From Balneola sp. (lineage in GTDB: Bacteria > Bacteroidota > Rhodothermia > Balneolales > Balneolaceae): DNA of 64,000 bases. Numbering within the stretch: position 1 is the first letter of the stretch; every line of letters starts with the position of its first letter. The DNA lies in the NCBI GenBank assembly GCA_002696035.1, contig NZQV01000007.1, positions 62,001 through 126,000 on the forward strand, given 5' to 3'. The notes beneath the pieces are model-generated. The model searched no databases. It was not told the DNA's origin and was given only the letters and a program-made list of their open reading frames with translations. The translations under genes were made by a program, and so were the position numbers. Below are positions 13,408 to 51,391 of this stretch, piece after piece.

Positions 13408-13671
13408 GGACCCTATCCCTGTCCCTTTCCCTAACGCACTCTTTTATGATTGTTGTTTTGGATATAACTATTCCACCTTTTCAAATAACTGTTTTTTATC
13501 AACTGGCATGCGTCAAGGGAAAGGGGACGCCTTGGTGAGTGTAAAAATAGGTAGTACAATTTTCCTGAAATGATTTATTAAATGTCTCGCTGTTAAAAAA
13601 TTGAACAAAATCCCCAAAGCGTCTCCTTCCTTGCAAGGCGTAGCCGCAGGAGGGAAGGAACAAGGATGGGT
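13408..13671. repeat. 264-bp direct repeat, copy 1 (left of DUF559 gene)
   Basis: This block matches 14111-14374 along its length. The outer parts (13408-13537 and 13611-13671) are nearly identical and the middle is diverged but alignable. The first part is itself bounded by inverted arms (GTCCCTTTCCCTAACGC at 13421-13437 against 13510-13528). The last part can fold through TCCTTCC/GGAAGGA. The 394-bp gap between the M16 gene and the DUF559 gene holds little else. Confidence 0.85.
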
Positions 13672-13720
13672 TTTGTTTGGGCGAGATTGCTGTTTTCTAT
13701 AAAATGACACTAATTCCACC

Positions 13721-14092: not shown

Positions 14093-14110
14093 TTTGTTTG
14101 TTTTTGAAGA

Positions 14111-14374
14111 GGACCCTAACCCTGTCCCTTTCCCTAACGCACTCTTTTGTGATTGTTGTTTTGGATATAACTACTCCACCTTTTCAAATAACTGTTTTTA
14201 TCAACTGGCATGCGTCAAGGGAAAGGGGACGCCTTGGTTAAAGTTTGGGTAAGTAGTACAAATTTGATGAGATGATGTATTAACTGTTTAGATATCAGAA
14301 GCTAGCTAAATACTCCCCAAAGCGTCTCCTTCCTTGCAAGGCGCAGCCGCAGGAGGGAAGGAACAAGGATGGGT
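14111..14374. repeat. 264-bp direct repeat, copy 2 (right of DUF559 gene)
   Basis: Second copy of the repeat at 13408-13671, in the same orientation and the same overall length. It carries the same internal inverted arms and the same 60-bp terminal block (14313-14374). It fills the 360-bp gap between the DUF559 gene and the acylase 3' end and ends 79 bp before the acylase stop. Confidence 0.85.
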
Positions 14375-14452
14375 CCCGGTGGGTGTGGCAACCAAGTTCT
14401 CGCCGGCACAAAGAATCAAAAGCAACCAGAAACGTTCCTACTTCAATATTCT

Positions 14453-20667: not shown

Positions 20668-20739
20668 TCCTCGGTAGCTCAGTGGCAGAGCAGTTGACTG
20701 TTAATCAATTGGTCGTAGGTTCGAATCCTACCCGGGGAG
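20668..20739 (+). tRNA. tRNA-Asn (GUU anticodon)
   Basis: The cloverleaf can be drawn by hand: acceptor TCCTCGG pairs with CCGGGGA with one G-U. A D-arm follows (GCTC..GAGC). The anticodon loop is CTGTTAA with GTT in the middle. The T-arm is GTAGG-TTCGAAT-CCTAC, and the discriminator is G. CCA is not encoded. The 3' half is the attachment site of the island that follows. Confidence 0.95.
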
Positions 20740-20741
20740 CA
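20695..20741 (+). repeat. attL (tRNA-Asn 3' half)
   Basis: A 47-bp segment covering the anticodon arm, T-arm and acceptor 3' strand of tRNA-Asn. It is identical to 51345-51391. Integration preserves a complete tRNA at this end. Confidence 0.93.
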
Positions 20742-20981: not shown

Positions 20982-22157
20982 ATGGCTAGTCTCAAAAAAA
21001 GAAACGGAATCTACTACATCAGGTTCTTCTCAAATGAAGATGGAAAGGATAAAAGAAAAGCATTGAGTTTGGGGACTACGCTCAAAAGGGAAGCGGAGAA
21101 AATGCTTATAGCGTATGAAGATAAATTTGAAAGGGGAGAGATCGATCCATTCAATGGCTGGACTCCAAAAATGGAGGCGCAGAAAAAGAGAAGGAAATTA
21201 TCGGGAAAGCATATTTCTCTGAAAAAAGCCACGAATGAATTCATACGAAAAAGAAGTCAGGCCAATCAAACGACCAAGGATCACTATCAACGAATCTTTG
21301 ATATGTTTATGGAAAAGGTTGGGACTACAATGCCTGTTACTCAGATTATAGAAAAAGATATCAGGGAATTCTGTTTTGCGAATAGTCTATCAAATGCTTC
21401 TCAGGCTAATTACCTAAGACATTTAAAAGTATTGTTTAGATGGATGAAAAATGAAGGAATTTTAAAAGAAGATATTTCAAAAGGATTAAAACCTCCAAAA
21501 ACGCCTCAAAAAATCACACAGAAAACAGTGAGTCGAAAGGAGCTTGATCAGATATTTAAGGCTTTTGATAAATTTTATCGAGAACATGAGAAAGCCGGAT
21601 ATGTGACCAAACCTCACCAGAAGCGATTATGGTTTAAACCCATGATCAATACAATTTACTATTGTGGGTTAAGAGCGAAAGAGGCTGTAAACCTTACATG
21701 GAATGATGTGAAGTTTGAAGAATCAAAAAAGAAAAGTAAGGACTTCGGATATATACGTATTGCGAATACAAAAAAGAATACTACTAAATCGGGTAAGGAA
21801 AGAATAATTCCCATTCGGAAACCATTGTATCCATGGCTAAAAAAATGGCATGAAGATCAGGGGGAACCAAGTGATGGATACGTATTCCCAAGTGCATCCG
21901 GTCATGATAGCTGGAGCAGAATGGATCCTCTTTCTTTGTCGAAGTCTTATAAGAAGTTTGTAAAGAAAGCTAAGAACGTGCCCAATAGTCCAACGCTACA
22001 TGGCTTGAGGCATGCCTGTGCTACTGACTTGCTTGCTAAAGGAGTATCTCCGGTTATTGTACAAAAGATCATGGGGCATGCCTCAATTAATACTACGATG
22101 ATTTACGAACATCTGGATGCACAGAATATTAAGAATGCTGTTAAGGGGATTGACTGA
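20982..22157 (+). CDS. int: Tyrosine recombinase (island integrase)
   Basis: Site-specific recombinase that integrates and excises the island at tRNA-Asn. The product is 391 aa: an N-terminal arm-binding/AP2-like segment (about 1-50), a SAM-like core-binding domain (about 85-165) and a catalytic domain (about 180-390). Catalytic residues visible are Arg231 (GLRAKEA), His340 and Arg343 (HGLRH), His366 (GHAS) and the nucleophile Tyr375 (MIYEHL). The next gene's ATG overlaps its TGA by one base. Confidence 0.95.
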   Translation: MASLKKRNGIYYIRFFSNEDGKDKRKALSLGTTLKREAEKMLIAYEDKFERGEIDPFNGWTPKMEAQKKRRKLSGKHISLKKATNEFIRKRSQANQTTKDHYQRIFDMFMEKVGTTMPVTQIIEKDIREFCFANSLSNASQANYLRHLKVLFRWMKNEGILKEDISKGLKPPKTPQKITQKTVSRKELDQIFKAFDKFYREHEKAGYVTKPHQKRLWFKPMINTIYYCGLRAKEAVNLTWNDVKFEESKKKSKDFGYIRIANTKKNTTKSGKERIIPIRKPLYPWLKKWHEDQGEPSDGYVFPSASGHDSWSRMDPLSLSKSYKKFVKKAKNVPNSPTLHGLRHACATDLLAKGVSPVIVQKIMGHASINTTMIYEHLDAQNIKNAVKGID

Positions 22158-32374: not shown

Positions 32375-33979
32375 ATGGCTGGAAAAGTAATCGCAAAAAA
32401 TGAGAGCATTCTCCCCTTCTTTGGAGATCGGATGACCATCATTGGGGGCTTGGACCCCTTGGGTAATCAAAACACATCAGATGCCACTTTCCAAATGATT
32501 CTACCTGGACTGAATAACGTTACAGGTCGACTACGCTATTATAGTTATTACTGCTGGCTACTTGATCAGTACAGCGAACGGGTTGGAAGTACTGACCCGG
32601 CTCATTTCCGGCGCTTTATAAGAAAAGCAGAATACCTTACTGCTTTAGCTGCTCAATTAGATCCGGAGGATACCAAAAGTATATCCGGTAGCACTTATGC
32701 AGGTAAGGAGTTAAATGAAAACAACACTGTTATTAAACTGAATGAAGGCATATACAAGCCAGATGGAGATACCGAGGACACCTACTGGAAATTTCCCTTA
32801 GGCATATTTGGTCAGTATTACCTGGGGTCAATGCGAACTATCGGCTTACTGATTGAACATGCAACCCAAGAAGGTTTATACATTCGTACTGAAAGTAGTG
32901 AAGGCAAGTACATCGATGGAAAACAGATGGCAGAAGCTTTTGGAGCAAACCTGAGTGAGGAAAGTGTTTCATTATTCTTCAGGTGTATGGATCAGGAAGA
33001 GGTAACGAAAAATGAGCTTGAGCAGTTATTGCCGGACTTCTCACTGACAACGATTCCGCAAGGCACCGATGAAATTCGATTATTAACCAGAATGTTGATT
33101 CAAAAAGACTACCCGAGATCGAAGGAAAACACATTTACTTTTCGAAGTGAAACCATAAAATACCTGTTTCATTTTTTGGAGGGGTTTAGTGGTGACTTTG
33201 AGGATCGTTCATTTATACAGCACAGCTATTTTAAAAAAGGCTTGTTTGAATCAGAGTCAGTACCGGTGCTTACCGGGTGGTATTTTTATCAGTTTAACGA
33301 ATATTGGCAATATGCCTGCTCAGCTGTTCTCAATGGAGTACTTACTTATCTTCAGGAAAAGCATGCTCCTGATGCCCCTTCAGTCAGCTTATTCATTGAT
33401 CAGGTAACTGAGGAAATCATAAAATATTTAGAACAGCAGTCACTAACTGCTCATAATGCTACCTTAGATAAAGCTGTCTCTTCGATAGGATTAAGAGAAC
33501 AAGATTTTGCGGCTTCCATACATACCAATAAAGGAATTGATAAGGCCGGAGCTGCCCTTCAGCTGTTATTGGCGTTGTACAAAGGAAATAAGGAGCAATT
33601 AAAGGATTTAAAAGCGTATGGAAAGAAGCATGATCTGTTAAGAAATGGTGCAGGAGTAGAGTATTTTCTAAAGGAATTTGAATCCAAAACCTCCTGGGAT
33701 TTTAATCGGTTTTTATCAGACTTCTTGTTGCGAAAGATTATTCTTAGACATCAGTTTGTGGCATTTCGAAAGATGGGGAATGGAAATCAGTCCACACAGA
33801 AATTCATTCTTGAAGAGCACACGATACGTTATCTGGGCAGGCTGGATGAAAACTATACAGGGCCAAGAATTGGTAACCTGATACAGTTCTTGATAGATGC
33901 GCAACACCTTACAAAAGATTATGAACTTACCGATACGGGTAAATCGCTAAAAAAGGCACTTTGGGATGGAACTGATTGA
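32375..33979 (+). CDS. Uncharacterised 534-aa protein, first gene of the PLD/RecQ defence-like operon
   Basis: I do not recognise a named family. The N-terminus has a strongly patterned block (GGLDPLGNQ at 27-35, then LPGLNNVTGRLRYYSYYCWLL around 49-69). I believe this recurs in proteins encoded next to PLD nucleases and helicases. The C-terminal 70 residues (IGNLIQFLIDAQHLTKDYELTDTGKSL) look like a winged helix. There is no signal peptide or membrane segment. Its stop overlaps the PLD gene start by 14 nt, so translation is coupled. It may act as a sensor or adaptor. Confidence 0.7.
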   Translation: MAGKVIAKNESILPFFGDRMTIIGGLDPLGNQNTSDATFQMILPGLNNVTGRLRYYSYYCWLLDQYSERVGSTDPAHFRRFIRKAEYLTALAAQLDPEDTKSISGSTYAGKELNENNTVIKLNEGIYKPDGDTEDTYWKFPLGIFGQYYLGSMRTIGLLIEHATQEGLYIRTESSEGKYIDGKQMAEAFGANLSEESVSLFFRCMDQEEVTKNELEQLLPDFSLTTIPQGTDEIRLLTRMLIQKDYPRSKENTFTFRSETIKYLFHFLEGFSGDFEDRSFIQHSYFKKGLFESESVPVLTGWYFYQFNEYWQYACSAVLNGVLTYLQEKHAPDAPSVSLFIDQVTEEIIKYLEQQSLTAHNATLDKAVSSIGLREQDFAASIHTNKGIDKAGAALQLLLALYKGNKEQLKDLKAYGKKHDLLRNGAGVEYFLKEFESKTSWDFNRFLSDFLLRKIILRHQFVAFRKMGNGNQSTQKFILEEHTIRYLGRLDENYTGPRIGNLIQFLIDAQHLTKDYELTDTGKSLKKALWDGTD

Positions 33980-36602
33980 GAGAAGAAATATTCTAAGTTT
34001 GATCGGTAGGGACGGTAGGAAGTATCATTCTTGCTTAATGACCAGTTTTAGCTTCGATTACCTGTTCTTCGAACAGCGAATTATGCATACCCTTAGAGTC
34101 AATAAGGTTCAGAACGTTGTTGCGTTGGTGGATGGCAGTAATCTTGCGAGAGCAAATGAACTGCTTAGTGGACAGGAGGTTGTCCGTGGTAATTCATACA
34201 GTACATGCCCGGTATATGCTCAGGGAGCTTTTCATCCAAAGATGTTACTGTTAGCTGGAGAGAAAAATGGGTTGTTGCTGATTGGTTCCGGTAACCTGAG
34301 CAGTTCGGGACTGAGTACGAATGATGAAATTTGGGCTGCTTTTCAGCTATCTGATTCAGATAATGACAATGCGTTTTTATTTGGCGCTGCTTGGGCGTAT
34401 TTCAATAACCTAAGTAGTTCTTTCCGTGGTACGAACAGTAAGAAGTTGGAATGGGTATCCAGGTATGCTCCATGGATAAGGAGTTTGCCTATTGACCAAT
34501 ACCATGGAGAGATAAAAGAGGCAAAGACAGAAGCTTGGTTTCTTGCAAATTCAAAGAAGGCTTCAATTTTTGATCAAATTGTAAAAACAATACCCAGTCA
34601 AGAGATCGAGGCGATAACCGTAATCTCCCCTTATTATGATGAAAAAGGTTTATTCCTTACTGACCTGCATACGCATTTCGAACCGAAGGAAATGCACTGC
34701 TGTGTTGACTTAAAATCCGGATTACTCCCACATCTTCTGGATAAGGGTTGGAAACAAAAGATTAAGTTTTACGACTGGTCTGAGGTACGCAAAGATTTTA
34801 ATTCAGACTTTAATCGTTTGCATGCAAAGTTGATCCATTTCAAGACATCCGGAGATACAGAATATCTTCTATTTGGCAGCTCTAATGCTACCATTGCCGG
34901 TATGGGTGGTATAAACAAACGCGCTATAAATGATGAGGTTAACCTGCTGATCAAGCGGAATGCCACATCAGATTGGTTATCACAGTTGGCGATCAATATT
35001 AACCCTTCGAATCGTACAACAATACCAGAAAAGGAGAAAAAGGAAAAGGAAACTGAACCTGCGACGTCACTACCATTTCGCATAGATTACGTTGAAATAA
35101 ATCAATCTACATTGACCCTTTACCTGGGTAAGTCAGATGTTACTTCAGTCTTATTGGTCTCAGAAGACCTTCAAGGGACTGCATTGGAGACAAATGAGTG
35201 TTCAGTTTCAGAACAAGTGGTAAGCATTAAGTGTTCTTCAAATACAGCAAAATCAGCTGTCAGGCTGTTTTTCTCGGATGAAAACGGTAATAGAATTTCA
35301 AATTTTGCCCTTATCCATTCTGTCGAAGCATTGGAGCGGAGTAATCCGGACCCTTCTAAAGCGCGCATTACACAGCTCCTAAATAAAACGGAATTTACGG
35401 CTAAGGACTGGTCAGAACTGCTCAATATTGTAAGCTTATCCGAATTTGAGAATCATACTGTACGATCTTCTTCAACGTATAGCGGTGGAGGAAGAGGCAG
35501 AAAAGAAAGCAAAGATGATCCTCAAACTGAGTCAGATGATTATGTAACAACAAGCAAAGACGAGTTTAACAAGCAGGGTGAAAATGAGCAAATTATTGAC
35601 AGACATTATCGCAGCAATGCCGGGCATGTGTATTCGTTTCTTTCGGATCGAGGAGTTAATATCGTTTCCAACGATAGTTTTGAAGAAAGTGAGGAACAAA
35701 AATTAGCCCAGAACCCTGATTCTGGAGGCGAAGGAGATAAGATTGAGGACAGGAAGCCATCAGTTCCTAATGATTCACCCGATATCCAACGAAGTATTAT
35801 TAACTATTTAAACAAGGTAGAACGGCACTATAATACAAAGATAAAGGGTATTGATTCTCAATCTAAAAACACAAAACTGCATAAAGTTAGTGGAGAAGCT
35901 ATTAAAGATTTATTGATAGCTCTTCAGCTTATCATACTTTTTAAAGACAGGAAATACGAAGTAGAGGTTGCTAATGAGTCAGATAAGGAGGTTGTAAGTA
36001 AGCTCTATTTTGAAGAAGGCAGCTTAGGAAGTGGGAATGATACCATAAAAGGCTTTCTGTTGAGCGTGATAGGTAAGTTCGCTTATATATGTCGCGCACT
36101 GGGTTATGTAGAGTATAATGATACTGAACAGCAAGAAAGCCTGACAGCATTGAGAATGGATGCGTTTAATAAAACGATGCAATTGATTCATGAGATACAA
36201 TGGAATAGGATGCCCGAACTCAACATGCGGAAATTACTTATTCTGAACATACTTGAGTATATCTGTCCGAATGCAGAGAGTGTAAATCTAAATGATTTTG
36301 GTAGTGATGTTCCTGAGTTAATACGAAAGGAGACAGAGCATATACTCGAAGAGTACAGACAATGGAAAAAATTGTATAAGAATCAGGAGTTAAAGAAAAG
36401 AGTCCTGATCCGAGGGTTGCATCAGAACTCCAGAAATAAGTTTCTTTTTCACGGAGAAGTCGGTTTTGCATTTCTCGAAGAGGTGGTTAAAATGAAACCA
36501 CGTGTTGTTGTCAAGTTACAGCACCCGGCTTTTGATAAGCGGAATAACTACACTAAGAAGGTTAAATTCTACCCAAGTATCGTACAGTTTAAGCTAAAGT
36601 AG
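33966..36602 (+). CDS. PLD-superfamily nuclease-like protein (878 aa)
   Basis: Two HxK motifs define a phospholipase-D-type fold: HPK at 90-92 with GSGN at 107-110, and HAK at 286-288 with GSSN at 304-307. Both lack the Asp of the canonical HxKxxxxD, as in many DNA-cleaving or DNA-binding PLD proteins. The remaining 550 residues include a low-complexity linker (about 505-610, Ser/Gly/Asp-rich) and a helical C-terminal domain. It is coupled to the upstream gene by a 14-nt overlap, and a RecQ-type helicase follows after 52 nt. A nuclease effector in a defence operon is the favoured reading. Confidence 0.8.
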   Translation: MELIERRNILSLIGRDGRKYHSCLMTSFSFDYLFFEQRIMHTLRVNKVQNVVALVDGSNLARANELLSGQEVVRGNSYSTCPVYAQGAFHPKMLLLAGEKNGLLLIGSGNLSSSGLSTNDEIWAAFQLSDSDNDNAFLFGAAWAYFNNLSSSFRGTNSKKLEWVSRYAPWIRSLPIDQYHGEIKEAKTEAWFLANSKKASIFDQIVKTIPSQEIEAITVISPYYDEKGLFLTDLHTHFEPKEMHCCVDLKSGLLPHLLDKGWKQKIKFYDWSEVRKDFNSDFNRLHAKLIHFKTSGDTEYLLFGSSNATIAGMGGINKRAINDEVNLLIKRNATSDWLSQLAININPSNRTTIPEKEKKEKETEPATSLPFRIDYVEINQSTLTLYLGKSDVTSVLLVSEDLQGTALETNECSVSEQVVSIKCSSNTAKSAVRLFFSDENGNRISNFALIHSVEALERSNPDPSKARITQLLNKTEFTAKDWSELLNIVSLSEFENHTVRSSSTYSGGGRGRKESKDDPQTESDDYVTTSKDEFNKQGENEQIIDRHYRSNAGHVYSFLSDRGVNIVSNDSFEESEEQKLAQNPDSGGEGDKIEDRKPSVPNDSPDIQRSIINYLNKVERHYNTKIKGIDSQSKNTKLHKVSGEAIKDLLIALQLIILFKDRKYEVEVANESDKEVVSKLYFEEGSLGSGNDTIKGFLLSVIGKFAYICRALGYVEYNDTEQQESLTALRMDAFNKTMQLIHEIQWNRMPELNMRKLLILNILEYICPNAESVNLNDFGSDVPELIRKETEHILEEYRQWKKLYKNQELKKRVLIRGLHQNSRNKFLFHGEVGFAFLEEVVKMKPRVVVKLQHPAFDKRNNYTKKVKFYPSIVQFKLK

Positions 36603-36654: not shown

Positions 36655-39600
36655 ATGAAACTATCTTCGGGTTACATATTAAGCGCATTTGATGAATACT
36701 TAAGATCGCATCCTTCGGATCAAGCTGTGATTCAAAAGCTCTGTAACTTTGAAGTAAAATCAGGCCTCATAAAAGATGAATATCATCAGATCGGTGAGAA
36801 TTTAGCCCCGCTGGCTGTATTAAACAATATCATTGTAAGAGGCTTTCCTACCTTTAGCAGCCTCTTCATTGAGGAGCAACTTGTTGAACTAAGCGAAGAA
36901 CTTGAGTTTGAGGACAGCAGCAAGCTTGTTCTGTCTAAACTTAATGATCTGTCGGGCACTGAGGTATTTGACAAACTTACCGCAAACCGTGGAGTAACAA
37001 AACATCTTCAGAAATCTCAGAAACTTCAGTCAGACAGTAGTTTCGAATATTCATTATTCGGACTTCTTGAAGACGAATTTGGGGAATGGATTCACACCAT
37101 ACTTTGTCAGCAGGTGCCTATAACTGATCTTGCACCCGGTGCCCTGGAATATGTTCAGCAAAGAGTCGATTTCCTGATTCCCTTCCCAATGCCTATAAAT
37201 GATATAAAGGGTTTTGTTATAGAAATGGACGGAGGACAACATCAGGATTATGGTGAAACGGATCTTGATAAGAGAAGAAACAACATCCTTTTGCACCATG
37301 GGTATGCTACTATTAGGATTGCTGCAGGTGATTCTCACGCTGAAAAACTTAATAAGCTTCAACAACTTAGACAATATCTTGATCACGAAGTATTCAAGTC
37401 TTATAAGCGAAGTGATGCAGAGCCTGATGAACTGGTCAACAGATTAATTATCTTACCTCTTGCTATAGGTCGTGTTCAATTGTCAGTGGTAAAAGGCATA
37501 CTGAGTAATCCTGAGTGGTTAAATGAACCATCGATCAATATCGCAGTTATTGAGGATGAGGATTATCTTTCAGGAATGGCCATTGATGATCTAAATCAGT
37601 GGGTATCCCATTTATCAGTTCTGACTGAGAACAGCAGCTTGCCCATCTTTTCTTATGATGTGTTTAAGAATGCCGGAGAAATTGAAGATTCATCACAATA
37701 CCATGCTGTGGTAGATATTTCGATGTATCACAGCATGATGGAAGATGAACCAAAAGAGTTTCCAAACTCAATTGTCATAAGAAATGCGCCACTCTACCAA
37801 AACGCAGACCGAACTATTACAACCGGCCCGCATATAAAATTTAAGGAGTTTGGGACTTTTGAGAACTCAAACTGGGAAGAAACTGAGCCTGACAGAGTTG
37901 AGTCACTTCGCTACTTTCTTAGAAGCCTGTTCAGAAAGAAGGATTTCAGGAAAGGACAGTTACCAATCTTGAACAGAGCTCTTACAGGTCAATCAGTCAT
38001 AGGCTTGCTTCCTACCGGTGGCGGTAAGTCTCTGACCTATCAATTATCAGCCTTGATGCATCCTGGAGTTTGTATGGTGATTGACCCAATTATCTCACTG
38101 ATGCGTGATCAGGTCAAGGGTTTACGGAATCACTGGATAGATGCCTGTCATTTTATTAACTCTTCAATCAAAACGAGAGAGAAAAAAGTTGAGATACAGA
38201 AGAAAATAAGTGATGGAAAAGCTCTCTTCTTTTTTATTTCTCCGGAACGGCTTCTTATTGAAGATTTCAGGAGTTATCTGCATACGATGTCTAAGGACAG
38301 TGATCCTGTCTACTATAATTACTGTGTAATTGATGAGGCGCATTGCGTTTCTGAATGGGGCCATGATTTCAGAACCTCGTATTTAAGTGTGGCTGAGAAC
38401 GCAATGCGGTATTGTATCACCCACCCTGAAGGTCTTGATACTATTCCAATTTTTGCACTGACTGCTACAGCTTCTTATGATGTGTTAACGGATATTCAGC
38501 GCGAGCTTTCCGGTAATGACATGTCGTTCCGAATTGGTGAAGAAGCCATTGTTGAACTTGATGAATACACCAGAGATGAGCTTACTTTTAAAATTCAGGA
38601 AATCGACTCGAAGGATCTATATGGAGCAAAAGGTTTTGACCTAAAGAAGAAACTTTCTGAAAAGAAGAATGAATACCTGAAGGAAATCCTCTTGCGACAT
38701 GATAATGACCTAAAGGATCAAGCAGGTTTAATCTTTACACCACATCGAAGCCATTATTTTGGAATAACTGATCGCTTTAAACCCAAAAGTAATGGCAACG
38801 GAGTGTTGGATAACCTAAGATCTGATGTTGGCCGACTAAGCCATAAGATGGGTTTTTTTATGGGTAGTGATGATGAAAATAAATCGGTTCAGGATATATC
38901 ACTTACCAATCAGGATAAATTTCTGAGTGGTGAGCTGAATTTACTGGTTGCTACCAAAGCATTTGGCATGGGTATTGACAAGAATGATATCCGCTTTACA
39001 GTTCATTATAACTACCCCTCCTCAATAGAGAGCTTTCTGCAAGAAGCAGGGAGAGCTGGTCGTGATGAAGAACCCTCAAGTTGTTATCTGCTGTACACTA
39101 ATCCTAATAGTTTAGAACAGGATGTAGAATTTGAGGTCAACGAATACTTCCATAAAAGCACATACAAAGGTGCTGACAAAGAGAAGTCAATTATTGAGGA
39201 GCTACTTCACAAAATTCATGAACCCGACCGAACCTATGAGTTAACAGCTGATATTCAGGATGAATTTGGTATCGAGGCTGTCGTAACGATATGGACAAGT
39301 AAAAGCGGAAACAGATATATAAGTGTTCAGGAAAGCTTCAATGATAAAGTTGGAGATATAATGATCCGAGGTAATGACTTTCCTATCTATTTTGCTGACG
39401 AAGTTAAGAACGGAACCGGCACATATTCCAGAGAAGAAGCAAATAAGATTATTTACTATGTGAAAAATAAGATTATTACCAAAGGAAACCCGAATGAGGT
39501 CTGGGATTGGATCAATTCCTCTGGCGGTACACGTGAAGGTATACTGCAGGTAATGCAAATGCCCAACTGTACTCAGGTAAAGTATTCGGGCAAAATGGAA

Positions 39601-40785
39601 TTGGCCTGGGAGAATAATATCCGAGAGCGAATCAAATGGATTCAATTGTTTGTAAAAGATTCACTTAAAAGAAAAGGAAAGAAATTTCAGGATTCCTATA
39701 TCGAGAATGTAGTTTCTAGTGCCGTGAAGGGAAAAGGAAGTGCCATCAATTTTGATGACTTTGTAAATAAAATTGATTCTGGCCTTTCAAAGTACAAGTA
39801 CGATTTATATGCTGAAGGTTGGGATAGAGATCAAAGAAAAGGCTGGGAAGAAGGAACTACCATGGAAGGTTTAATGGAGTTCTATAATCAAGTGCGTGAC
39901 AAGGCAGACACGGAAAAAGCTCTATATAGACTGCGGCTATTAGGAGTGTTGGATGATTACACGGTTGATTACCGGACTAATATGTTCACCTTATACCTAA
40001 GCAATAAATCAGACCAGTTTTACGAAGACAGGGTTCGTCATTATCTATCTAAGTTTTATTCAGAGGACCGCGTAAATAGAGAGCTCAAAAAGATTGAGGG
40101 ATATACTGGGAATTCTATTATACAGAAGTATTTAAAGTTTTTAGTAGACTTTGGATATGAACAGATCGCTGAAAAACGCGCTCGGTCAATTATTGATATG
40201 AAGGAGGCTTGTAAATATGGTTTAGAGAGAACTCCAAAAGATTTAGCAGAATATCTAACTCTGTACCTAAACTCAAAATATTTCAGAGAAGAGTACTTAG
40301 TCAATGATGTAAATGAATCATTGTCTTATAATCTTGACAAAGGAAAAATTATTGATCCGAAGTTTATTTGGCATTACATCGATTTGATGCTTCTAGATGG
40401 AAACAGTGAAGTAAACAATTTAAAACACCTCAGGGGTGCTTCTCTTAGAATGCTCCGTGCAACACCCGATAACCCCGTGTTGTTGACCTTAGCAGCATAC
40501 TCAACATTCTTTCTTGAGTATCAAACTCCAAATTTATTGAATGAAGCTGAAGAAAACCTCATGACGGCTTTAGACTACTATGAGGAAGTTGAAGGCTGGG
40601 AAGAGGCTCAGCTTGAGGCATTATTTGATAAGCTTGTTGAAATACTTAAAACCAAGCGTCCGGATATAACGGATTACTATGAATTTGAATTTGAGAACTT
40701 CAGGCTGAATGCTATTAACAAAAGCTTGAAATCAATCAATGGTAATTTAGATTACCTGAACAAAAAGTTACTGACTTATGGCTGA
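36655..40785 (+). CDS. Endonuclease-RecQ helicase fusion (1376 aa)
   Basis: A large superfamily-2 helicase. N-terminal residues about 130-245 resemble a Vsr/DUF559-type (MTES_1575) nuclease: Asp172 in QQRVDFLIP, then VIEMDGGQHQ (188-197) with Glu190 and Asp192, then RRNNILLHHGYATIRI. The RecQ-type motor starts near 430: Walker A LPTGGGKS (452-459), SLMRDQV, DEAH (560-563) in VIDEAHCVSEWGHDFR, and motif VI QEAGRAGRDEEPSSCYLLY. The 500-residue C-terminal part is unrecognised, with TPR-like helices at the end. It overlaps the next gene by 8 nt. Core RecQ is ruled out by size and nuclease domain. Confidence 0.88.
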   Translation: MKLSSGYILSAFDEYLRSHPSDQAVIQKLCNFEVKSGLIKDEYHQIGENLAPLAVLNNIIVRGFPTFSSLFIEEQLVELSEELEFEDSSKLVLSKLNDLSGTEVFDKLTANRGVTKHLQKSQKLQSDSSFEYSLFGLLEDEFGEWIHTILCQQVPITDLAPGALEYVQQRVDFLIPFPMPINDIKGFVIEMDGGQHQDYGETDLDKRRNNILLHHGYATIRIAAGDSHAEKLNKLQQLRQYLDHEVFKSYKRSDAEPDELVNRLIILPLAIGRVQLSVVKGILSNPEWLNEPSINIAVIEDEDYLSGMAIDDLNQWVSHLSVLTENSSLPIFSYDVFKNAGEIEDSSQYHAVVDISMYHSMMEDEPKEFPNSIVIRNAPLYQNADRTITTGPHIKFKEFGTFENSNWEETEPDRVESLRYFLRSLFRKKDFRKGQLPILNRALTGQSVIGLLPTGGGKSLTYQLSALMHPGVCMVIDPIISLMRDQVKGLRNHWIDACHFINSSIKTREKKVEIQKKISDGKALFFFISPERLLIEDFRSYLHTMSKDSDPVYYNYCVIDEAHCVSEWGHDFRTSYLSVAENAMRYCITHPEGLDTIPIFALTATASYDVLTDIQRELSGNDMSFRIGEEAIVELDEYTRDELTFKIQEIDSKDLYGAKGFDLKKKLSEKKNEYLKEILLRHDNDLKDQAGLIFTPHRSHYFGITDRFKPKSNGNGVLDNLRSDVGRLSHKMGFFMGSDDENKSVQDISLTNQDKFLSGELNLLVATKAFGMGIDKNDIRFTVHYNYPSSIESFLQEAGRAGRDEEPSSCYLLYTNPNSLEQDVEFEVNEYFHKSTYKGADKEKSIIEELLHKIHEPDRTYELTADIQDEFGIEAVVTIWTSKSGNRYISVQESFNDKVGDIMIRGNDFPIYFADEVKNGTGTYSREEANKIIYYVKNKIITKGNPNEVWDWINSSGGTREGILQVMQMPNCTQVKYSGKMELAWENNIRERIKWIQLFVKDSLKRKGKKFQDSYIENVVSSAVKGKGSAINFDDFVNKIDSGLSKYKYDLYAEGWDRDQRKGWEEGTTMEGLMEFYNQVRDKADTEKALYRLRLLGVLDDYTVDYRTNMFTLYLSNKSDQFYEDRVRHYLSKFYSEDRVNRELKKIEGYTGNSIIQKYLKFLVDFGYEQIAEKRARSIIDMKEACKYGLERTPKDLAEYLTLYLNSKYFREEYLVNDVNESLSYNLDKGKIIDPKFIWHYIDLMLLDGNSEVNNLKHLRGASLRMLRATPDNPVLLTLAAYSTFFLEYQTPNLLNEAEENLMTALDYYEEVEGWEEAQLEALFDKLVEILKTKRPDITDYYEFEFENFRLNAINKSLKSINGNLDYLNKKLLTYG

Positions 40786-41434
40786 TAACATCCGAAAACA
40801 AATTGAAAAAGAACTAACCAGCTTGAAAGAAAAAGCTGATTCTTTTAGCTCTGCAGTTGAAATTGTGGATGAGGCCAGATCAATGGCATCTTCCGCAGAT
40901 AAAGCTATTAAGAAAACCTCTGATTCCCTTTCAGAATTAGTACAAAAACAGGAAAGCCAACTTAGTAAACTCAATGAAGATCTAACTAAGCTCTCAAGTC
41001 TTCAGGAAAAGCTTAGTGAAACTGATATCCCTGAAAAGCTAAATGAACTTAGCTCCAGTCTAACAGATATAAACGAGGGAATCAGCGAAAAGATTAAGTC
41101 ACTCAATTCCAACGATGAGAAGATCAAAGAGCTCTTAACAAATCTTACCACTGCGCTTCAAACGTCTCACAAAAAGAGTGAAGAGAATAAAAAAGCTTTA
41201 ACGGATCAAATTGAAAAAGTTCAAAGTACTGCAGATAAACTCAGTACTGATTTAAGCTCGAATCACAAACAGATTAAAGATTTACACCTTAACAGTAATA
41301 GTGAGCTGGCAAAAATTATTAAGTCTGAGAATAAGGATCTAAAAAAGGAAGTTAATACTAATAGGATTTTTCTTATTGCTCTTATCGCTGTGGTAGTAAT
41401 CGTTCAGGTGGTGTTGTTTTTTTTGGGTATTTAA
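40778..41434 (+). CDS. Coiled-coil protein with C-terminal membrane anchor
   Basis: 218 aa. Residues 1-185 are a nearly continuous heptad-rich coiled coil (Lys/Glu/Ser/Leu). Residues 196-217 are a transmembrane helix (FLIALIAVVVIVQVVLFFLGI), so it is tail-anchored. It overlaps the helicase by 8 nt and ends the operon that starts at 32375. It could anchor or gate the nuclease-helicase complex at the membrane, or be the cell-killing part. Function is inferred from position only. Confidence 0.7.
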   Translation: MADNIRKQIEKELTSLKEKADSFSSAVEIVDEARSMASSADKAIKKTSDSLSELVQKQESQLSKLNEDLTKLSSLQEKLSETDIPEKLNELSSSLTDINEGISEKIKSLNSNDEKIKELLTNLTTALQTSHKKSEENKKALTDQIEKVQSTADKLSTDLSSNHKQIKDLHLNSNSELAKIIKSENKDLKKEVNTNRIFLIALIAVVVIVQVVLFFLGI

Positions 41435-42067: not shown

Positions 42068-43540
42068 TTAAACCCAACGCCTTCTATAAATATCAAAAAT
42101 TTCAGGGTGATCATCAATATTACGATAGCCTTCGCCAGGTTGGTAGTGGTCGTTGTTCCAAGAGTAAGTTTGATCAGGTTGAATAAACGAAAGACCCAAG
42201 GGAACAATCAAAAGAGGTAAGTGCTCGCGCCACTCTTTAGGTTTTACGGTATGAGGAACAGTTAAATCTATTATCCGGTCAATAGTTGCATAAGTTCGTG
42301 TAGCTGTAAGACTTTGAGAACCGTGATCATGTAATAATACTTTTTCAAGAAATTTACGGGTCCCCTTATCATCAGTAAACATTAGTGAGCCTCCGCCATA
42401 AAGAAAGCAGGACTGATTCTTAAACTTTGTATTTGCTACATACTTTTTAAACCGATCATATACTCTATAGTTATAGATTCTTTTAACCTTTTTTTCTAGC
42501 CGTTTAACCGTACGCCGGCATGCATTTATATACAGCCGGTCGTTTGCAAGATCCGCCGGAGTTTTGCGATCTAAAACATCCTGTACCTGTTCAGTTGATA
42601 TATCACCATTTATAGTTTGGCCATACTGATCAAATACATCATTGCTAGCTATTAATAAAGATTCAGAAGCTAGGTATTCAAAAGTTCGATTATTTTTGAC
42701 TCTAAAAAATGATACATCACTACTTCCGCCACCGATATCTAAAGACAGATAATAGCCTTCACCAATTTTTTCAGTTTTTACTAGGTAAGTTAGACCTGCG
42801 GCCGCTTCAGGAAATGCTGAAATATTACTATTTGCCAAAATATCTTCCCAGTTTTCTGTCTTAAGTCGCTCCGTTAGATCTCTAAATTCAGTTTCAATGA
42901 ATGCCAATATCCTATCAATAGTTAAATTTTTGATCTTACTATGGCTATAAACCTCATTTAACCGATTAGCAAAGTAGAGAATTTGCTCAAACTTTCGTCT
43001 TCTCCAAAAATTTACCTCTTTAGACCATTCAGTAGGGATTCCAATTTGATAGAAGAATGTATTTTTGGGTACGGGTTCTTCTTTTGGTTTATTTCCTCCA
43101 AAGAACTTTCCCAAAAAACTTCCGCTTTTAACTTTTTTATTACTGCTTTCATCAATTTGTTTAAACCGCTGCTCTACAATTCCACTAACAAATGAGAGAT
43201 AGATGATTGATATCACCTCAGGGGTGTATTTGCCGAATCGCTTCTGATCGTAGTGGTCTTGTTCTTGATCTAAACCGGAAATCCCTCTGAAGACTTCATC
43301 TTCTGCTGAAGCCATTTTAAAGTATCTAAAGGTTTCTGAAACTGGTTTGCCCTTTCCACTTATTCCAACTGAGACCGTATCGTCGTTATGTATATTTAGC
43401 CGGGATGGAAGGAACAAACTGATCTTGTCATCTGATCCAAAATTAATGAATTCATAGACCGGTACTTGCCCTTTCTTTTGATAATTTACACAGACTTTGG
43501 TTTGATGGGTTCCAAAGTCTAAACCTACCCGAACATCCAT
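42068..43540 (-). CDS. Hsp70/actin-fold ATPase
   Basis: 490 aa with an actin/Hsp70 ATPase core: phosphate-1 VGLDFGTHQTKV (5-16) and phosphate-2 DIGGGSSD (268-275). The Hsp70 substrate-binding half is missing, and a 60-residue charged insertion lies at about 125-160. It starts 14 nt after the SNF2 helicase stops, in the same direction, so the two form a bicistron. It might be an ATP-driven regulator or clamp for the helicase. It is not a housekeeping DnaK. Confidence 0.8.
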   Translation of the reverse strand: MDVRVGLDFGTHQTKVCVNYQKKGQVPVYEFINFGSDDKISLFLPSRLNIHNDDTVSVGISGKGKPVSETFRYFKMASAEDEVFRGISGLDQEQDHYDQKRFGKYTPEVISIIYLSFVSGIVEQRFKQIDESSNKKVKSGSFLGKFFGGNKPKEEPVPKNTFFYQIGIPTEWSKEVNFWRRRKFEQILYFANRLNEVYSHSKIKNLTIDRILAFIETEFRDLTERLKTENWEDILANSNISAFPEAAAGLTYLVKTEKIGEGYYLSLDIGGGSSDVSFFRVKNNRTFEYLASESLLIASNDVFDQYGQTINGDISTEQVQDVLDRKTPADLANDRLYINACRRTVKRLEKKVKRIYNYRVYDRFKKYVANTKFKNQSCFLYGGGSLMFTDDKGTRKFLEKVLLHDHGSQSLTATRTYATIDRIIDLTVPHTVKPKEWREHLPLLIVPLGLSFIQPDQTYSWNNDHYQPGEGYRNIDDHPEIFDIYRRRWV

Positions 43541-43554
43541 ATTAATCCCTCTAT

Positions 43555-46500
43555 TTAATCTGTGACCAAGATATGACTAACTGAAATAGGTATCATAGAC
43601 GAATTAATGGATGACTTTTCCAACAAATCCAGTCTCTTTTCTTTCTCGTTTTCAAATTTCTCTATTTCGGATAATATAATTGGCCGAATTTTACTGTTTT
43701 TATTCTCTTTTAAACGTTGTTCTCTTACATCAATTTGATAGTCATAGTGGCTTGAGGTCTGTTTCTTTATTCGATCAACTTGTGAACTCAGTTTTATCCG
43801 TTCATCCTCTTCCATTTCAACTTTTTTCTGGATCAACTTTTCCATCACTACAGGTCTTACTGCATCTATAAAAGCACTGTAACCTTCATTCGAAAAATCA
43901 ATATCTGCTTCAAGGGGCCTTGCGTTAACATTTGCAACGCCCAAAATATGTTCACTTACATTATCCGGAAGAAAAGTTAATTCTTCTTGATTGGGATCTG
44001 CGATTACAGGATATAAATAAGTAAAAGTGCTTTTTTCACCATTGAACTCTTTTTCAATTTGAATACTGTTTAAAGCTAAGATGTAGTTACCCTGGGAAAT
44101 ACCAATTTCTTCATCAAAATCTGATTTTGACACGGTAAAGCCATAGGCGTTATTCACACTGAAATTATCTGCTTTAAAATAGTTCGTTGCAGCTATTACC
44201 AGAGGATGGTAAGAATTAATAAACTCAAGCTGTTTATTCTTGAACGCCAATTCCTGATCAAAGGTGATTTCAATGTCCCGCTTGTCAAAGTATTTTCTTT
44301 TAAAGTCGTGAAAGATCTTATTAGTCGCATCCGAGTGTCTTGAAGTAGTGTCAGGAATATATTCTTCAATAAAAGAAAAAATGATGTTTGGATCATTTGA
44401 AGGTGTTTTTAAGCCATAAATGCCATCACCCTGATCAACTAAATTACAGCTTGGGATTGCTCTTTGAAGCAAAATTTCAATATAGGATAGGAGCTCACTT
44501 TCAGTGATATAGCGCTTGTTATTTCGAATTCTTTCAATCTCATTATTGAAATAGGTGTCGTTAATGAGGCTATCTTGTAACTCTTTTTCTACTTCCTCGA
44601 GGTTTCTTTTTTCTTGGAGAACGGCTTTAGCAGTTTGCTCAATTCGTTCTTCTTTTTGGTCTTCTGTTAGTTCTTGGGTGTAAAGGTCAGATTCCAGTTT
44701 TGATATTTCTTTACCCAATGTTTCTTCATCCAATAAGATAGACTCAAGGTCTCCTAAGCTTTCCTCAAAAATTCTAATCTTTTTAAGCAAACGCTTATAG
44801 ATTACCTCTTCAATAGTATTCCTGATTACAAGATTGTAGATATGGATCTTATCTGATTCCTGGCCAATACGATCAATACGACCAATTCTTTGTTCAATCT
44901 TCATTGGGTTCCACGGTAAATCATAGTTTACAATAGCATCACAGAACTGCATATCAAGACCTTCAGCACCAATAGAGCCAGATATCAAAACCTTGAATTC
45001 AGGATCATTTTTAAATCGGTCTAATACTTCACTTCTGTTTTCGGTTCCCCCATCCATGAATTCAGATTTAATCCCAAATTCATTTTGGATACGAAGATTT
45101 AAATACCGCAATGTTTTTTTGAAGTAGGCAAAAATGATCAGTTTGTTGTTATCTCTCTCAACTACTTTTTCAATAATCTCTTTTAGCTTGTTGAACTTTG
45201 AATCTTCAAAACCATCGAAGTAATTTCCATCGTTAAGGGTCTTCATTTCAGTATAGTAAGCGGGCAGGCTACTGGCTACTTGTCGTTTGACGTTTATTAA
45301 AGCCAATGTCGCTTCTCTATCGCTATTGAATCTATCCCGAACCTTCTTCTCTTCTCTGAAGTATCTTTCACTTTCTTCGGAGGTAAAAGAAACTAATACA
45401 TCGTGAGGCACCCGAATAACACGTTCTCTTATCACATCTCTTTTTTTAGTTCGGGTAAAGATGTGGTTCAGTGAATTAAGCTCTATTAAATCACTTTGTA
45501 TATCTACTCTTGCTTCTAGGCTATCTTCAGCAGTTTTTAATTTTTCGATGACGCGTTGAAATAGGGGGTCATCACTAAAAACATCTTCAATAGTTTCAGT
45601 GAAATCTAACCTGTTTTCACCATAACTAAATTGCCGTTGAATAGCATGGCCTTTTAATTCTGAAAGTACTTCCTGGAATGGCTCTTTTCGATTCAGCTTG
45701 TTCAAAGCTCGAACAAAAGGTCTATTAGTTTCGATATCATTCAGATACATTGAGTAGTTATGATATCTTTGCGGCTCGAGGATGGACAACATATTGTAAA
45801 GATCCTCTCTGGTATTACAGATTGGAGTAGCCGTCAACATAGTTGCAAACTTCGCATTATGAATGATTGGCTTTATTGCCCTATGTCGCTGAGTCTCACT
45901 ATTTCTAAGTAGGTGAGCTTCATCACAAATGATTACATCAAAAGAATACTGTTGCTTTACTAACAGGTCCTGAAGGTGATCATTTTTGAGTTTATCATAG
46001 GTGATAATTCCAAAAATACTCTTTCTATTTAACTCAATATCGTGTTTCAAGTCTTGAGCAAGCTCTTTCGTTTCATAAACTTTAAACTCGAATCCAAATT
46101 TCTCGAACATCTCGTTTCTCCATTTTTCCAGCAAAGACTTTGGGCAAATGACCAGTACATTATTGATTTCCTTTCGTCCGTACATTTCGAGTAAGATGTG
46201 ACCTGCCTCAATGGTTTTACCTAGGCCGACCTCATCAGCAATAAGTATTCGTTTTGATATAGAATTCAAAAATTTGATTAGAGGTTTAAATTGATGAGGT
46301 TGAAAAAGGGTGCGAGAAGCTTTTAAAGATGAGATCGTATTGTTTGCATTATTGCCAACTTTAAAGAAAGTAGATGTTACCCCAAATTCTTGATGGTTTA
46401 GTACAGCTCCATTTTTCAATCTGTCCCAAGGGTCTTCTGATGTAACTAATGGTCTGATTTCATTTTCTGACATATACCTAGCCGATTTATCCCCATCTAA

Positions 46501-46614
46501 ATGAACGGTGTAGTATTCTTGCCCTCCAGCTTCAGTTTCAAATTTTACAATACTACCTTTTCTTTCAGGGGGCCCCGTCGTTTCGATTCTTTCTCCTTGG
46601 CTGTAATTGGGCAT
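43555..46614 (-). CDS. SNF2/HepA-type DNA helicase
   Basis: 1019 aa SNF2-family translocase. An N-terminal barrel-like segment (EYYTVHLDGDKSARYM) resembles RapA/HepA tudor-like domains. Walker A is DEVGLGKT (127-134), the DEAH box is 231-234, and the C-terminal motor has AEGLDMQ and NPMKIEQRIGRIDRIGQ. The last 350 residues are charged and coiled. SNF2 motors of this kind are found in several anti-phage systems. It is divergent from the HNH gene and co-directional with the Hsp70-like gene. Confidence 0.9.
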   Translation of the reverse strand: MPNYSQGERIETTGPPERKGSIVKFETEAGGQEYYTVHLDGDKSARYMSENEIRPLVTSEDPWDRLKNGAVLNHQEFGVTSTFFKVGNNANNTISSLKASRTLFQPHQFKPLIKFLNSISKRILIADEVGLGKTIEAGHILLEMYGRKEINNVLVICPKSLLEKWRNEMFEKFGFEFKVYETKELAQDLKHDIELNRKSIFGIITYDKLKNDHLQDLLVKQQYSFDVIICDEAHLLRNSETQRHRAIKPIIHNAKFATMLTATPICNTREDLYNMLSILEPQRYHNYSMYLNDIETNRPFVRALNKLNRKEPFQEVLSELKGHAIQRQFSYGENRLDFTETIEDVFSDDPLFQRVIEKLKTAEDSLEARVDIQSDLIELNSLNHIFTRTKKRDVIRERVIRVPHDVLVSFTSEESERYFREEKKVRDRFNSDREATLALINVKRQVASSLPAYYTEMKTLNDGNYFDGFEDSKFNKLKEIIEKVVERDNNKLIIFAYFKKTLRYLNLRIQNEFGIKSEFMDGGTENRSEVLDRFKNDPEFKVLISGSIGAEGLDMQFCDAIVNYDLPWNPMKIEQRIGRIDRIGQESDKIHIYNLVIRNTIEEVIYKRLLKKIRIFEESLGDLESILLDEETLGKEISKLESDLYTQELTEDQKEERIEQTAKAVLQEKRNLEEVEKELQDSLINDTYFNNEIERIRNNKRYITESELLSYIEILLQRAIPSCNLVDQGDGIYGLKTPSNDPNIIFSFIEEYIPDTTSRHSDATNKIFHDFKRKYFDKRDIEITFDQELAFKNKQLEFINSYHPLVIAATNYFKADNFSVNNAYGFTVSKSDFDEEIGISQGNYILALNSIQIEKEFNGEKSTFTYLYPVIADPNQEELTFLPDNVSEHILGVANVNARPLEADIDFSNEGYSAFIDAVRPVVMEKLIQKKVEMEEDERIKLSSQVDRIKKQTSSHYDYQIDVREQRLKENKNSKIRPIILSEIEKFENEKEKRLDLLEKSSINSSMIPISVSHILVTD

Positions 46615-46716: not shown

Positions 46717-47637
46717 ATGAAATTCTACATAGGCGTCACAGATGATGAATGGTTCCACTTTCTGTCTCAGCAGCAGCCGGATGAGGTGAACTTTTGGCGT
46801 CCGAGAGATAAGTCTGATTTTAAGGTCATTCAGGAGGGAGCTCCTTTTCTGTTTAAGCTGCATAGTCCGAATAACTATATCGTAGGCGGGGGCTTTTTTG
46901 TAAAACATCTTTTTCTGCCACTTTCTTTAACCTGGGATGCTTTTGGTATCAAAAATGGAGCGGCTACTTACGATGGATTTCGGCAATCTATAATGAAATT
47001 CAGAGAGGGTGAAGGACTCAACCCTACTATTGGCAGTACCATTCTAACCGAGCCTTTTTTCTTTAAGCGTGAAGATTGGATTCCTATTCCAAGTAACTGG
47101 AGTAAGAACATTGTAAAGGGTAAATCATACAGCACGGAAGACCCCATAGGAGCAAGCGTCTGGGATCAGGTTAAGGAAAGACTGGGAGATCTTGATCGAA
47201 GAGAAGGGGAGCTGGTTATTAACGAACCGGGAGTCCAATATGGAAAAATGATAGAAATCCGTTCAAGAATTGGCCAGTGTGCATTCCGGGCGATGGTCAC
47301 AGATGCCTATAAATACCGCTGTGCCATCACCAAAGAGAAAACCTTGCCGGTCTTGGAGGCGGCTCATATCAAACCCTACTCTAACTCCGGCCCAAACCTA
47401 ACTAAGAATGGATTACTTTTGCGATCTGATATGCATATCCTTTTTGATAAAGGATACATGACCGTTACGGATGATCATCGGGTAGAAGTCAGCCAAAGAA
47501 TCAGAGAGGAGTACGAAAACGGGAAAGAATACTACGCCTACCACGGAGAAAAACTCCAAAACCTGCCGGAGCATAACTTGGACCAACCGTCTGCTGATTA
47601 TTTGCAATGGCATCAGCAGGAGATTTATTTGGGATGA
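46717..47637 (+). CDS. HNH endonuclease with N-terminal reader-like domain
   Basis: 306 aa. The C-terminal HNH (about 200-245) reads C202, AAHI with His217, then NGLLLRSDMHILFD with Asn231 and His240. This is the form seen in ScoMcrA-like type IV restriction enzymes. The N-terminal 130 residues (PFLFKLHSPNNYIVGGGFF; FFFKREDWIPIP) have the look of an EVE/ASCH/SBD-type base-reading domain. It would cut DNA with modified bases. The 102-bp gap to the SNF2 gene holds the divergent promoters. Confidence 0.85.
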   Translation: MKFYIGVTDDEWFHFLSQQQPDEVNFWRPRDKSDFKVIQEGAPFLFKLHSPNNYIVGGGFFVKHLFLPLSLTWDAFGIKNGAATYDGFRQSIMKFREGEGLNPTIGSTILTEPFFFKREDWIPIPSNWSKNIVKGKSYSTEDPIGASVWDQVKERLGDLDRREGELVINEPGVQYGKMIEIRSRIGQCAFRAMVTDAYKYRCAITKEKTLPVLEAAHIKPYSNSGPNLTKNGLLLRSDMHILFDKGYMTVTDDHRVEVSQRIREEYENGKEYYAYHGEKLQNLPEHNLDQPSADYLQWHQQEIYLG

Positions 47638-49431: not shown

Positions 49432-50970
49432 TTAACCAAAAACCTCAGTATAAGCCTCTTCGAGCATTTCAACCTCATCACTGGTAAGACTTGCAAACTC
49501 TTTGTTCTTTGCTCTGTTGGATAGTAGACCATAATTCTGTCGCAGAAAACCAATGAGATTCTCTATGGTTTTGTCCGGCATATCAAAATGTTCCTGTATG
49601 AAGTTTCTCATTTTGTCATGATTCTCAAGGTACTGCACTTCTTCCGGTAGTGTTTTTAATACCGTTTCCTCTACACATTGGTAAAGAAATTCTGCCTGTT
49701 TGGTGGCATCAAAGTAGCGGTATAAGTCGATGGTTTCATTTAGAACTTCAACATTACCATCCGGAGTTGACTTCCACTTAATGAAGTCAAGGCGTGGTTT
49801 CGAGAACGATTCTAAAACTTTTTTGTACTCATCAATCCGATCTAAAATCACTGCTGAAACTGGGAAAATGAGTCCTTTAGGTGAAAAAACTTTTCTGGCC
49901 AGCACATGATGAAAGATATACCGGTGCACACGCCCGTTCCCATCAGCAAAAGGGTGGATGAAAACAAATCCAAAGGCTATAAGTGTAGCCGCAAAAACAG
50001 GATCATATTCACTGTCAATTAGAGACTTATTGGCCTTTAATAGTCCTCCTATGAGCTGAGGTATATCTTGCCATCTGGCAGAGATATGATCAGGAACGGG
50101 TAACTTACTCACACGGTCATGAACACCAACAAACCCTCCCTCTGCACGCCACCCCATTTCCACAAATCGTCTGTCTTCAATTACAATTTCTTGTAAACGC
50201 AGCAGTTCGTCTTCTGTGAGATCTTTTTGTCCGGCCTGTCCGATTGCTTTGCCCCAGCGCTGCGCTCTGTTTTCGGGAGGGGTTTCTCCTTCAATCGCGT
50301 ATGAAGCTTTAGAATCTTTTAATAACAGAAAAGCTGTAGCCCGTGACAATAGATCCGGATGTACTTTTCCAATTGTATCCTTTACTTTTTTCTCCAGCTC
50401 ATCGACGCTAAAGCGTTCAAGAATTTCAGTACGATGTATTAATGGACAGAAATCTTTGTTTCCCGGCAGATTGTTCCAAACGCGATGTCGCTGGGATCTT
50501 TCTTTAGGGCCCGGATATTGTAAGCTTGGGTCGAGCGCCTCAATATAGTTGCCAACCTGAGTATCTTCTATATCTAATCGCTTATTTGTAAGCCACTCAT
50601 AGAAAAACCAAATTCGTCTGCTGTTCCGGCCTGTGGGCTGATCATTTACAATCGCTTCAATTTCTTTTATATCTACGGTCTCAAAAATTCTTTTAAGTAT
50701 GAGCAAGTCTACTCCCTCATACCTGAAAGCAAAGGTAAGGTGACCAAGAAGGGTAGGAGTCGGTTCCTGTACTGTTTTAAATACGCGCCACTTACCTTCT
50801 ATATAGCTTCTGTGCTTGTCACTTATAGCTGATATCAAATCAGGTAAGGGGACTTCTAATTCATAGTGATGGATTAAAGCACTATATCCAGCGAGCTTCA
50901 TTCCGGTTTCTGGAAGGGCATAATTCCTGAAAACGGTTATACTTTCTTCAAATCGATTACTTTCGGCCAT
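49432..50970 (-). CDS. Fic-domain AMP-transferase (class II, SoFic-like candidate)
   Basis: 512 aa. The Fic core motif is complete: HPFADGNGRVHR at 339-350, so nucleotide transfer to a protein target is expected. An N-terminal-side inhibitory helix motif (S/T)xxxE(G/N) reads SYAIEG at 223-228, which places it in class II. A winged-helix-like C-terminus follows. Single-gene Fic proteins (SoFic) have been reported as anti-phage; I suggest, but cannot prove, that this is one. Three ATCGATTACT repeats at its start suggest autoregulation. Confidence 0.88.
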   Translation of the reverse strand: MAESNRFEESITVFRNYALPETGMKLAGYSALIHHYELEVPLPDLISAISDKHRSYIEGKWRVFKTVQEPTPTLLGHLTFAFRYEGVDLLILKRIFETVDIKEIEAIVNDQPTGRNSRRIWFFYEWLTNKRLDIEDTQVGNYIEALDPSLQYPGPKERSQRHRVWNNLPGNKDFCPLIHRTEILERFSVDELEKKVKDTIGKVHPDLLSRATAFLLLKDSKASYAIEGETPPENRAQRWGKAIGQAGQKDLTEDELLRLQEIVIEDRRFVEMGWRAEGGFVGVHDRVSKLPVPDHISARWQDIPQLIGGLLKANKSLIDSEYDPVFAATLIAFGFVFIHPFADGNGRVHRYIFHHVLARKVFSPKGLIFPVSAVILDRIDEYKKVLESFSKPRLDFIKWKSTPDGNVEVLNETIDLYRYFDATKQAEFLYQCVEETVLKTLPEEVQYLENHDKMRNFIQEHFDMPDKTIENLIGFLRQNYGLLSNRAKNKEFASLTSDEVEMLEEAYTEVFG

Positions 50971-51344: not shown

Positions 51345-51391
51345 TGACTGTTAATCAATTGGTCGTAGGTTCGAATCCTACCCGGGGAGCA
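51345..51391 (+). repeat. attR (tRNA-Asn 3' half)
   Basis: 47-bp exact copy of 20695-20741. No 5' half is present, so it is not a functional tRNA. It marks the right end of the island. Confidence 0.93.

Follow-up and report, generated by a model that had tools for sequence, protein, structure and literature searches.

An open reading frame (ORF) in a 64,000-nucleotide stretch of Balneola sp. DNA (contig NZQV01000007.1, positions 62,001 to 126,000; 'the window' below, from whose first letter all coordinates are counted) encodes an intact protein of 1376 amino acids with an ATG start (36655..40785, + strand), in which a RecQ-family helicase carries an N-terminal PD-(D/E)XK nuclease domain, and the stop codon of this gene is overlapped by the start of a second one, for a 218-residue tail-anchored coiled-coil partner (40778..41434, +). 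This nuclease-helicase, together with a small coiled protein that would plug into the membrane, suggests an uncharacterised two-gene system against invading DNA. The nuclease-like domain keeps its catalytic-type residues across distant relatives, the helicases of these relatives form a distinct branch among RecQ-type proteins, and a tail-anchored coiled coil follows them with striking strictness. From these observations we tentatively favour the view that the helicase gene and its downstream neighbour constitute a two-gene mobile module, probably anti-invader, in which a membrane-tethered helicase-nuclease would attack incoming DNA.

The RecQ-like motor, which a preliminary description had proposed from the bare sequence, lies at residues 415-860 (37897..39234, +), where we recognise an aromatic-rich loop and what we take to be motifs 0-VI, including the Walker A lysine, Lys458 (38026-38028, +). 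It passes the RecQ family model TIGR00614 (240.7 bits over a cut-off of 219.8) and does not reach the RecQ orthologue equivalog TIGR01389 (265.4 bits, cut-off 640.2); indeed, zinc, RQC and HRDC domains are absent from the seven Pfam families listed for the ORF at E<=1, and no cysteine cluster was found 3' of the motor in the sequence of 36655-40785. Three further regions are recognised by profiles built from the family, namely an N-terminal region (residues 1-121, 36655..37017, +) that is predicted to be helical, with some low-confidence stretches, and whose profile matches other members, a linker domain (residues 246-414, 37390..37896, +) and a family-specific C-terminal region (residues 861-1376, 39235..40782, +). 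For the C-terminal 541 residues, modelled at a predicted local distance difference test score (pLDDT) of 72.8, Foldseek gave no match at E<=0.001, and a scan of genome contigs with the whole protein as a single sequence matched three stretches, none of them a relative.

Three lines of evidence taken together, namely the profile, the conserved motifs and the predicted fold, support the fusion of a DUF559/Vsr-type PD-(D/E)XK domain (residues 122-245, 37018..37389, +) to this motor. As a single sequence the ORF scores 18.5 bits against Pfam DUF559 (PF04480), short of the gathering cut-off of 20.6. In an alignment of 18 rows, selected for bearing the nuclease motif, D172, F173, E190, D192, G193, H196, D205 and R208 are invariant, and the profile of residues 122-245 built on these rows detects the domain in 13 further members, which were fetched by helicase-motif patterns, lay outside the profile and were retained on their match to it. 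These 13 are 19-26% identical to the window copy, and in the 14 rows that they form with it D172, F173, E190, D192, G193, D205 and R208 are again invariant (14/14) while H196 varies. The catalytic-type Asp and Glu, D172 and E190, are thus kept in 14/14 and 18/18 rows, all domain-selected, and because D172, E190, D192, G193, D205 and R208 are invariant in relatives the motif match goes beyond chance. Asp172 (37168-37170, +) stands in VDF and Glu190 (37222-37224, +) in IEMDG, followed by Asp192 (37228-37230, +), and these residues, like Lys458 in Walker A, are where the preliminary description had placed them. The profile of the second set (window copy plus 13) matches the solved endonuclease-like protein 3hrl, which we take to be of DUF559 type, at E=1.9e-6, and PvuRts1I at E=0.2 only. 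With the nuclease profile built on the 18 rows, none of 92 other RecQ-type helicases exceeds 30 bits. AlphaFold2, run on 14 sequences, modelled the region with a pLDDT of 79.0 and a predicted template modelling score of 0.82, and the model contains a restriction-endonuclease-type alpha-beta-beta-beta-alpha-beta core (H129-142, E151-155, E170-181, E184-192, H203-214, E217-223), so that the structural check by which the early proposal could have fallen did not refute it. For residues 120-246, VIA-align returned FASTKD4 (Z 7.5), whose RAP module is presumably nuclease-like, PvuRts1I (6.9), VRR_NUC (6.5), TnsA (6.2) and BstEII (5.4), in a list that also mixes in unrelated rows.

Relatives were gathered from whole genomes, plasmids, species genomes and viral contigs, and before counting we removed L051 and L071 (copies of L036 and L046; L numbers are our locus handles) and the ordinary RecQ loci L069 and L070. 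The resulting family comprises 36 loci, among them L048, which was left out of the tree, and excluding L039, a 329-residue fragment at a contig end whose helicase score did not pass. In a tree of the helicase domains, built from 36 rows of the family and 46 of the 92 other RecQ rows (one in two), the family falls on one side of a branch with a support of 92 in the Shimodaira–Hasegawa-like approximate likelihood ratio test (SH-aLRT), slightly below the starred support level, with L139 as a long branch. The window protein has both features by which we define the family, the C-terminal family profile and a tail-anchored next gene. The nuclease domain is present in 31/36 family rows, and its presence label takes three changes within the family, a pattern that fits a nuclease present early and then lost repeatedly. 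Other N-termini also occur: the Raoultella plasmid form begins with a HAD hydrolase and has a weak, below-cut-off phosphoribosyltransferase match, and L046, L058, L061 and L137 give methyltransferase-like matches below cut-off. Members span Bacteroidota, Balneolota, Rhodothermota and Pseudomonadota, with Actinomycetota and Bacillota represented by single metagenome bins.

The window partner has a single hydrophobic helix that begins at about residue 197 and runs almost to its C-terminal end, and a single-helix tail-anchored protein is likewise encoded by the next gene at 31 of the 33 family loci that can be scored, that is, where this gene lies on the same strand and is up to 520 amino acids long (unscorable are L052, at a contig end, and L055 and L139, whose next called frame lies on the opposite strand). 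Under a looser rule the count is 32/36, with L055 included and L052, L056, L059 and L139 not. Among other called ORFs of 80-520 residues in the same loci only 2/283 are tail-anchored (1/201 at >=150 residues, 0/153 at >=200), and none of 21 immediately upstream same-strand genes is. Plain phmmer matches the window partner to the partners of only two relatives; in leave-one-out tests, which exclude the near-copies L038, L049 and L137, the partner profile beat all 50 plain shuffles in 30/30 cases, all 40 heptad-preserving shuffles in 29/30 and the sequence's own reversal in 28/30, so that the family's partners resemble each other beyond shared composition. Such a conserved tail-anchored partner suggests that the helicase-nuclease polypeptide does not act alone.

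Three side observations belong here. At L048 (7137-10130) the Walker A of the helicase is degenerate and the nuclease domain is absent, yet the tail-anchored partner is present; the L039 fragment is followed by a 237-residue protein with a C-terminal hydrophobic helix; and on the Rhodothermus plasmid pRMAR01 (L036) a second large gene (12998-16613, - strand, approximately 990 residues, weak AAA/UvrD-like matches) is followed by another tail-anchored protein, both adjoining the RecQ pair.

The genomic setting also counts for the favoured reading. The RecQ pair of the window sits in a 30.7-kb island that is bounded by a tRNA-Asn (GTT) gene, the integration site (20668..20740, +), and by a 47-bp attachment (att) repeat, the left copy of which is the 3' end of this tRNA gene (20695..20741, +) and the right one an exact duplicate (51345..51391, +), with a phage-type integrase just inside (20982..22157, +; PF00589, 114.8 bits); the G+C fraction of 0.382, against 0.441 in the left flank and 0.391 in the right, marks the left border only. 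Relatives, too, are found on plasmids and in IMG/VR contigs (the C-terminal profile matched 3/30 fetched IMG/VR loci), and this mobile setting favours that reading. So does the patchy distribution, the C-terminal part being matched in 19/394 genomes of the phylum, the source genome included; the E. coli form, at >=95% identity, occurs in 7/5426 E. coli genomes, three copies being chromosomal and four on plasmids, two of them in two pieces with an insertion sequence element annotated under the match. A third pointer is the company kept: the island contains a type I restriction-modification system, and L043, from the same genus and without the nuclease, runs directly into McrB-McrC, with gaps of -8, 7 and 6 bp in the series helicase, tail-anchored gene, AAA_5 protein and McrC. 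Elsewhere a DUF1848 gene lies directly upstream of the RecQ gene (L058, L059, L061, L063; spacing -31 to 1 bp). Upstream genes at other loci encode a 2OG-Fe(II) oxygenase at L046, an NB-ARC/NACHT-type ATPase at L062 and, at L035, a type I R subunit; L138 has a reverse transcriptase two genes upstream and L057 a GmrSD enzyme downstream. PADLOC, for its part, places DUF1848 in a reverse-transcriptase defence type (two of these loci were scanned).

Several results weigh against a membrane-tethered nuclease-helicase that works in defence. At the third catalytic position the usual Lys of E-x-K is replaced by an invariant Asp192, giving E-x-D. The structural matches reach modest Z scores (6.9 for the best nuclease), and a Z below 8 can mean merely a common arrangement; Foldseek alone on the nuclease region found nothing at E<=0.001, its top matches being sugar isomerases (E 0.01, probability up to 0.38) followed by VRR_NUC (E 0.11, probability 0.91). 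The Z scores are not decisive alone, and it is jointly that profile, motifs and fold support the nuclease fold. As for the pairing, the control ORFs are longest frames of which part may not be genes, the next gene lacks a tail anchor at L056 and L059 (and at L139 by the looser rule), and the 33 loci contain the near-copies L037/L038, L047/L049 and L058/L137, because of which the Fisher p value for the pairing is not to be read literally. Finally, a fixed rule that asks for a defence label (a PADLOC match at 1e-8) on the nearest large downstream gene gave 4/10 for the family and 2/10 for ordinary RecQ loci, upstream genes having been scanned in family loci only. By this rule there is no strong enrichment of defence context, and the neighbours named above are hand-picked examples that we regard as suggestive.

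If the favoured reading is right, the RecQ motor of the large protein would unwind DNA or translocate on it and its N-terminal PD-(D/E)XK domain would cut, so that, as the preliminary description also supposed, one polypeptide might do both. The small protein would sit in the inner membrane by its C-terminal helix while its coiled coil binds the enzyme and holds it there, either where incoming DNA is met or in a state that keeps the enzyme off until infection. Targets could be entering DNA or replication intermediates, with sensing joined to DNA damage as in Zorya and Hachiman. Published accounts describe Zorya as a membrane-anchored coiled structure with a DNA-damaging soluble effector (PMC11890865, PMC13192584), and Hachiman HamAB as a sensor helicase coupled to an effector nuclease (PMC12278908). 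The likeness to Zorya lies in the manner of working only, a membrane-anchored coiled part beside a DNA-damaging effector: the ion-motor proteins ZorA and ZorB were not seen at the window, where there is a single-helix tail anchor and no motor of that kind. The window system differs from Hachiman in being one fused chain with a RecQ-type motor and a membrane partner. A broader picture, possible though speculative, is that of a widespread, undescribed two-gene immune module, in which a RecQ-type motor, held at the membrane through a tail-anchored coiled coil of its own, carries a variable N-terminal effector slot (filled by the PD-(D/E)XK nuclease in most members, empty or occupied by other domains in others) and would process DNA at cell entry, with upstream add-ons (DprA, DUF1848, 2OG-Fe oxygenase, NACHT-type ATPase, McrBC) tuning recognition.

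The chief rival, which we consider unlikely but worth serious thought, is a toxin with its keeper: the large protein would lie dormant as an effector that damages the host, and the tail-anchored protein would inhibit or trigger it and let it loose upon infection, to kill or stall the cell. A published study reports that the RecQ-like RqlH is genotoxic unless restrained by its partner RqlI (PMC4670107), and the coupling of helicase to nuclease reported for Hachiman speaks for this alternative as well. Indeed, the likeness to PsyrTA/RqlHI extends to the motor (PsyrT profile, 200.6 bits) and, in the Raoultella and E. coli relatives, to an overlapping upstream DprA-family gene (at L037 and in the E. 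coli plasmid form, L038; PF02481 178.4 bits, ShosA 219.8 bits). The window copy, however, has no adjoining DprA-like gene, its neighbours being PLD-type and tail-anchored proteins, and Pfam lists no phosphoribosyltransferase domain for it; its nuclease domain and tail-anchored partner set it apart further, and a membrane tail would be unusual in a plain antitoxin. Membership of PsyrT was rejected, since both the domain and the neighbour tests failed, and the 728-residue RecQ-type protein of L194, which has a strong PsyrA match in its stretch, was placed outside the family branch.

Rather doubtful is a role in DNA repair or in the upkeep of a mobile element instead of defence. RecQ helicases are repair enzymes, members are located on plasmids and islands, and the weak enrichment by rule can be read this way. 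Against it, the family is patchy (19/394) and not core, the source organism carries other RecQ-type genes, and the tail-anchored partner would be left without a reason. We think it improbable that the nuclease-like domain is a non-catalytic DNA-binding or structural relic: the E-x-D motif and the loss of the domain in 5/36 family rows would suit a relic, but wherever the domain is kept its catalytic-type residues are invariant, even at 19-26% identity to the window copy. Very improbable, and dropped although it was our first idea, is that the RecQ gene is the third of an Azaca-like four-gene system with the overlapping upstream pair at 32375-33979 (534 residues) and 33966-36602 (878 residues, PLD-type; both +), which the island also contains. 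Although the spacing of 52 bp to the RecQ ORF is tight and PADLOC gives the pair weak matches, of 38.0 bits to ZacB and 14.6 bits to ZacA, no ZacC match is listed for the helicase, the family loci searched gave no match to either upstream protein, and the pair occurs together without the family helicase, and is hence separable from the RecQ pair, in 7/7 other loci, as far as the stretches examined reach (one stops 765 bp after the pair). In Myroides the pair is flanked by the HsdS and HsdR genes of a type I system.

Other known systems resemble parts of this one. The best PADLOC label of the window protein is DpdF of the Dpd (7-deazaguanine) system (PDLC02864, 266.1 bits), and the model PDLC02868, which extends into the nuclease region, matches 18/18 alignment members; DpdF membership was rejected, with NF041063 reaching 141.7 bits against a cut-off of 550, no Dpd modification gene appears among the matches listed for the window proteins scanned, and a DpdF family search was uninformative, with matches in 198/198 genomes and 0 over cut-off. 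PvuRts1I, VRR_NUC, TnsA and DUF559/Vsr proteins share the motif layout and the predicted fold of residues 120-246, but are stand-alone or occur in other contexts, with no RecQ fusion. CoCoNuTs (coiled-coil nuclease tandems) combine coiled coils with nucleases in restriction-type systems (PMC11090510); they are based on the McrBC GTPase, whereas the window system is RecQ based. In the open-licence PMC literature, outside which most subscription papers lie, we found no description of the RecQ/tail-anchored pair.

Several other genes of the window deserve mention. Inside the island and convergent to the RecQ pair lies an actin/HSP70-like protein (weak, distant matches) beside a DrmD/RapA-like SNF2 helicase (42068-46614, -); an HNH endonuclease (46717-47637, +; PF13391, 45.5 bits) follows within the island, and a Fic-domain protein (49432-50970, -; PF02661, 46.3 bits; PADLOC candidate PDC-S24, 644.7 bits) is encoded just inside the right att repeat. 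The second, solitary DUF559 protein that had been pointed out early on is there as described (13721-14092, +; 95.9 bits), likewise with an E-x-D motif; it lies outside the island, and nothing ties it to the RecQ ORF.

Helicase-nuclease pairs recur in bacterial immunity, whereas most of what is known about RecQ motors concerns repair. A word of caution for those who annotate genomes is that PADLOC-type scans give these proteins a DpdF label. The occurrence of an E. coli version on plasmids and chromosomes makes the system testable in E. coli and, if the proposal is true, this RecQ branch, with its built-in nuclease and strictly paired anchor, would add a simple means, made of two parts, of surveying DNA at the membrane.

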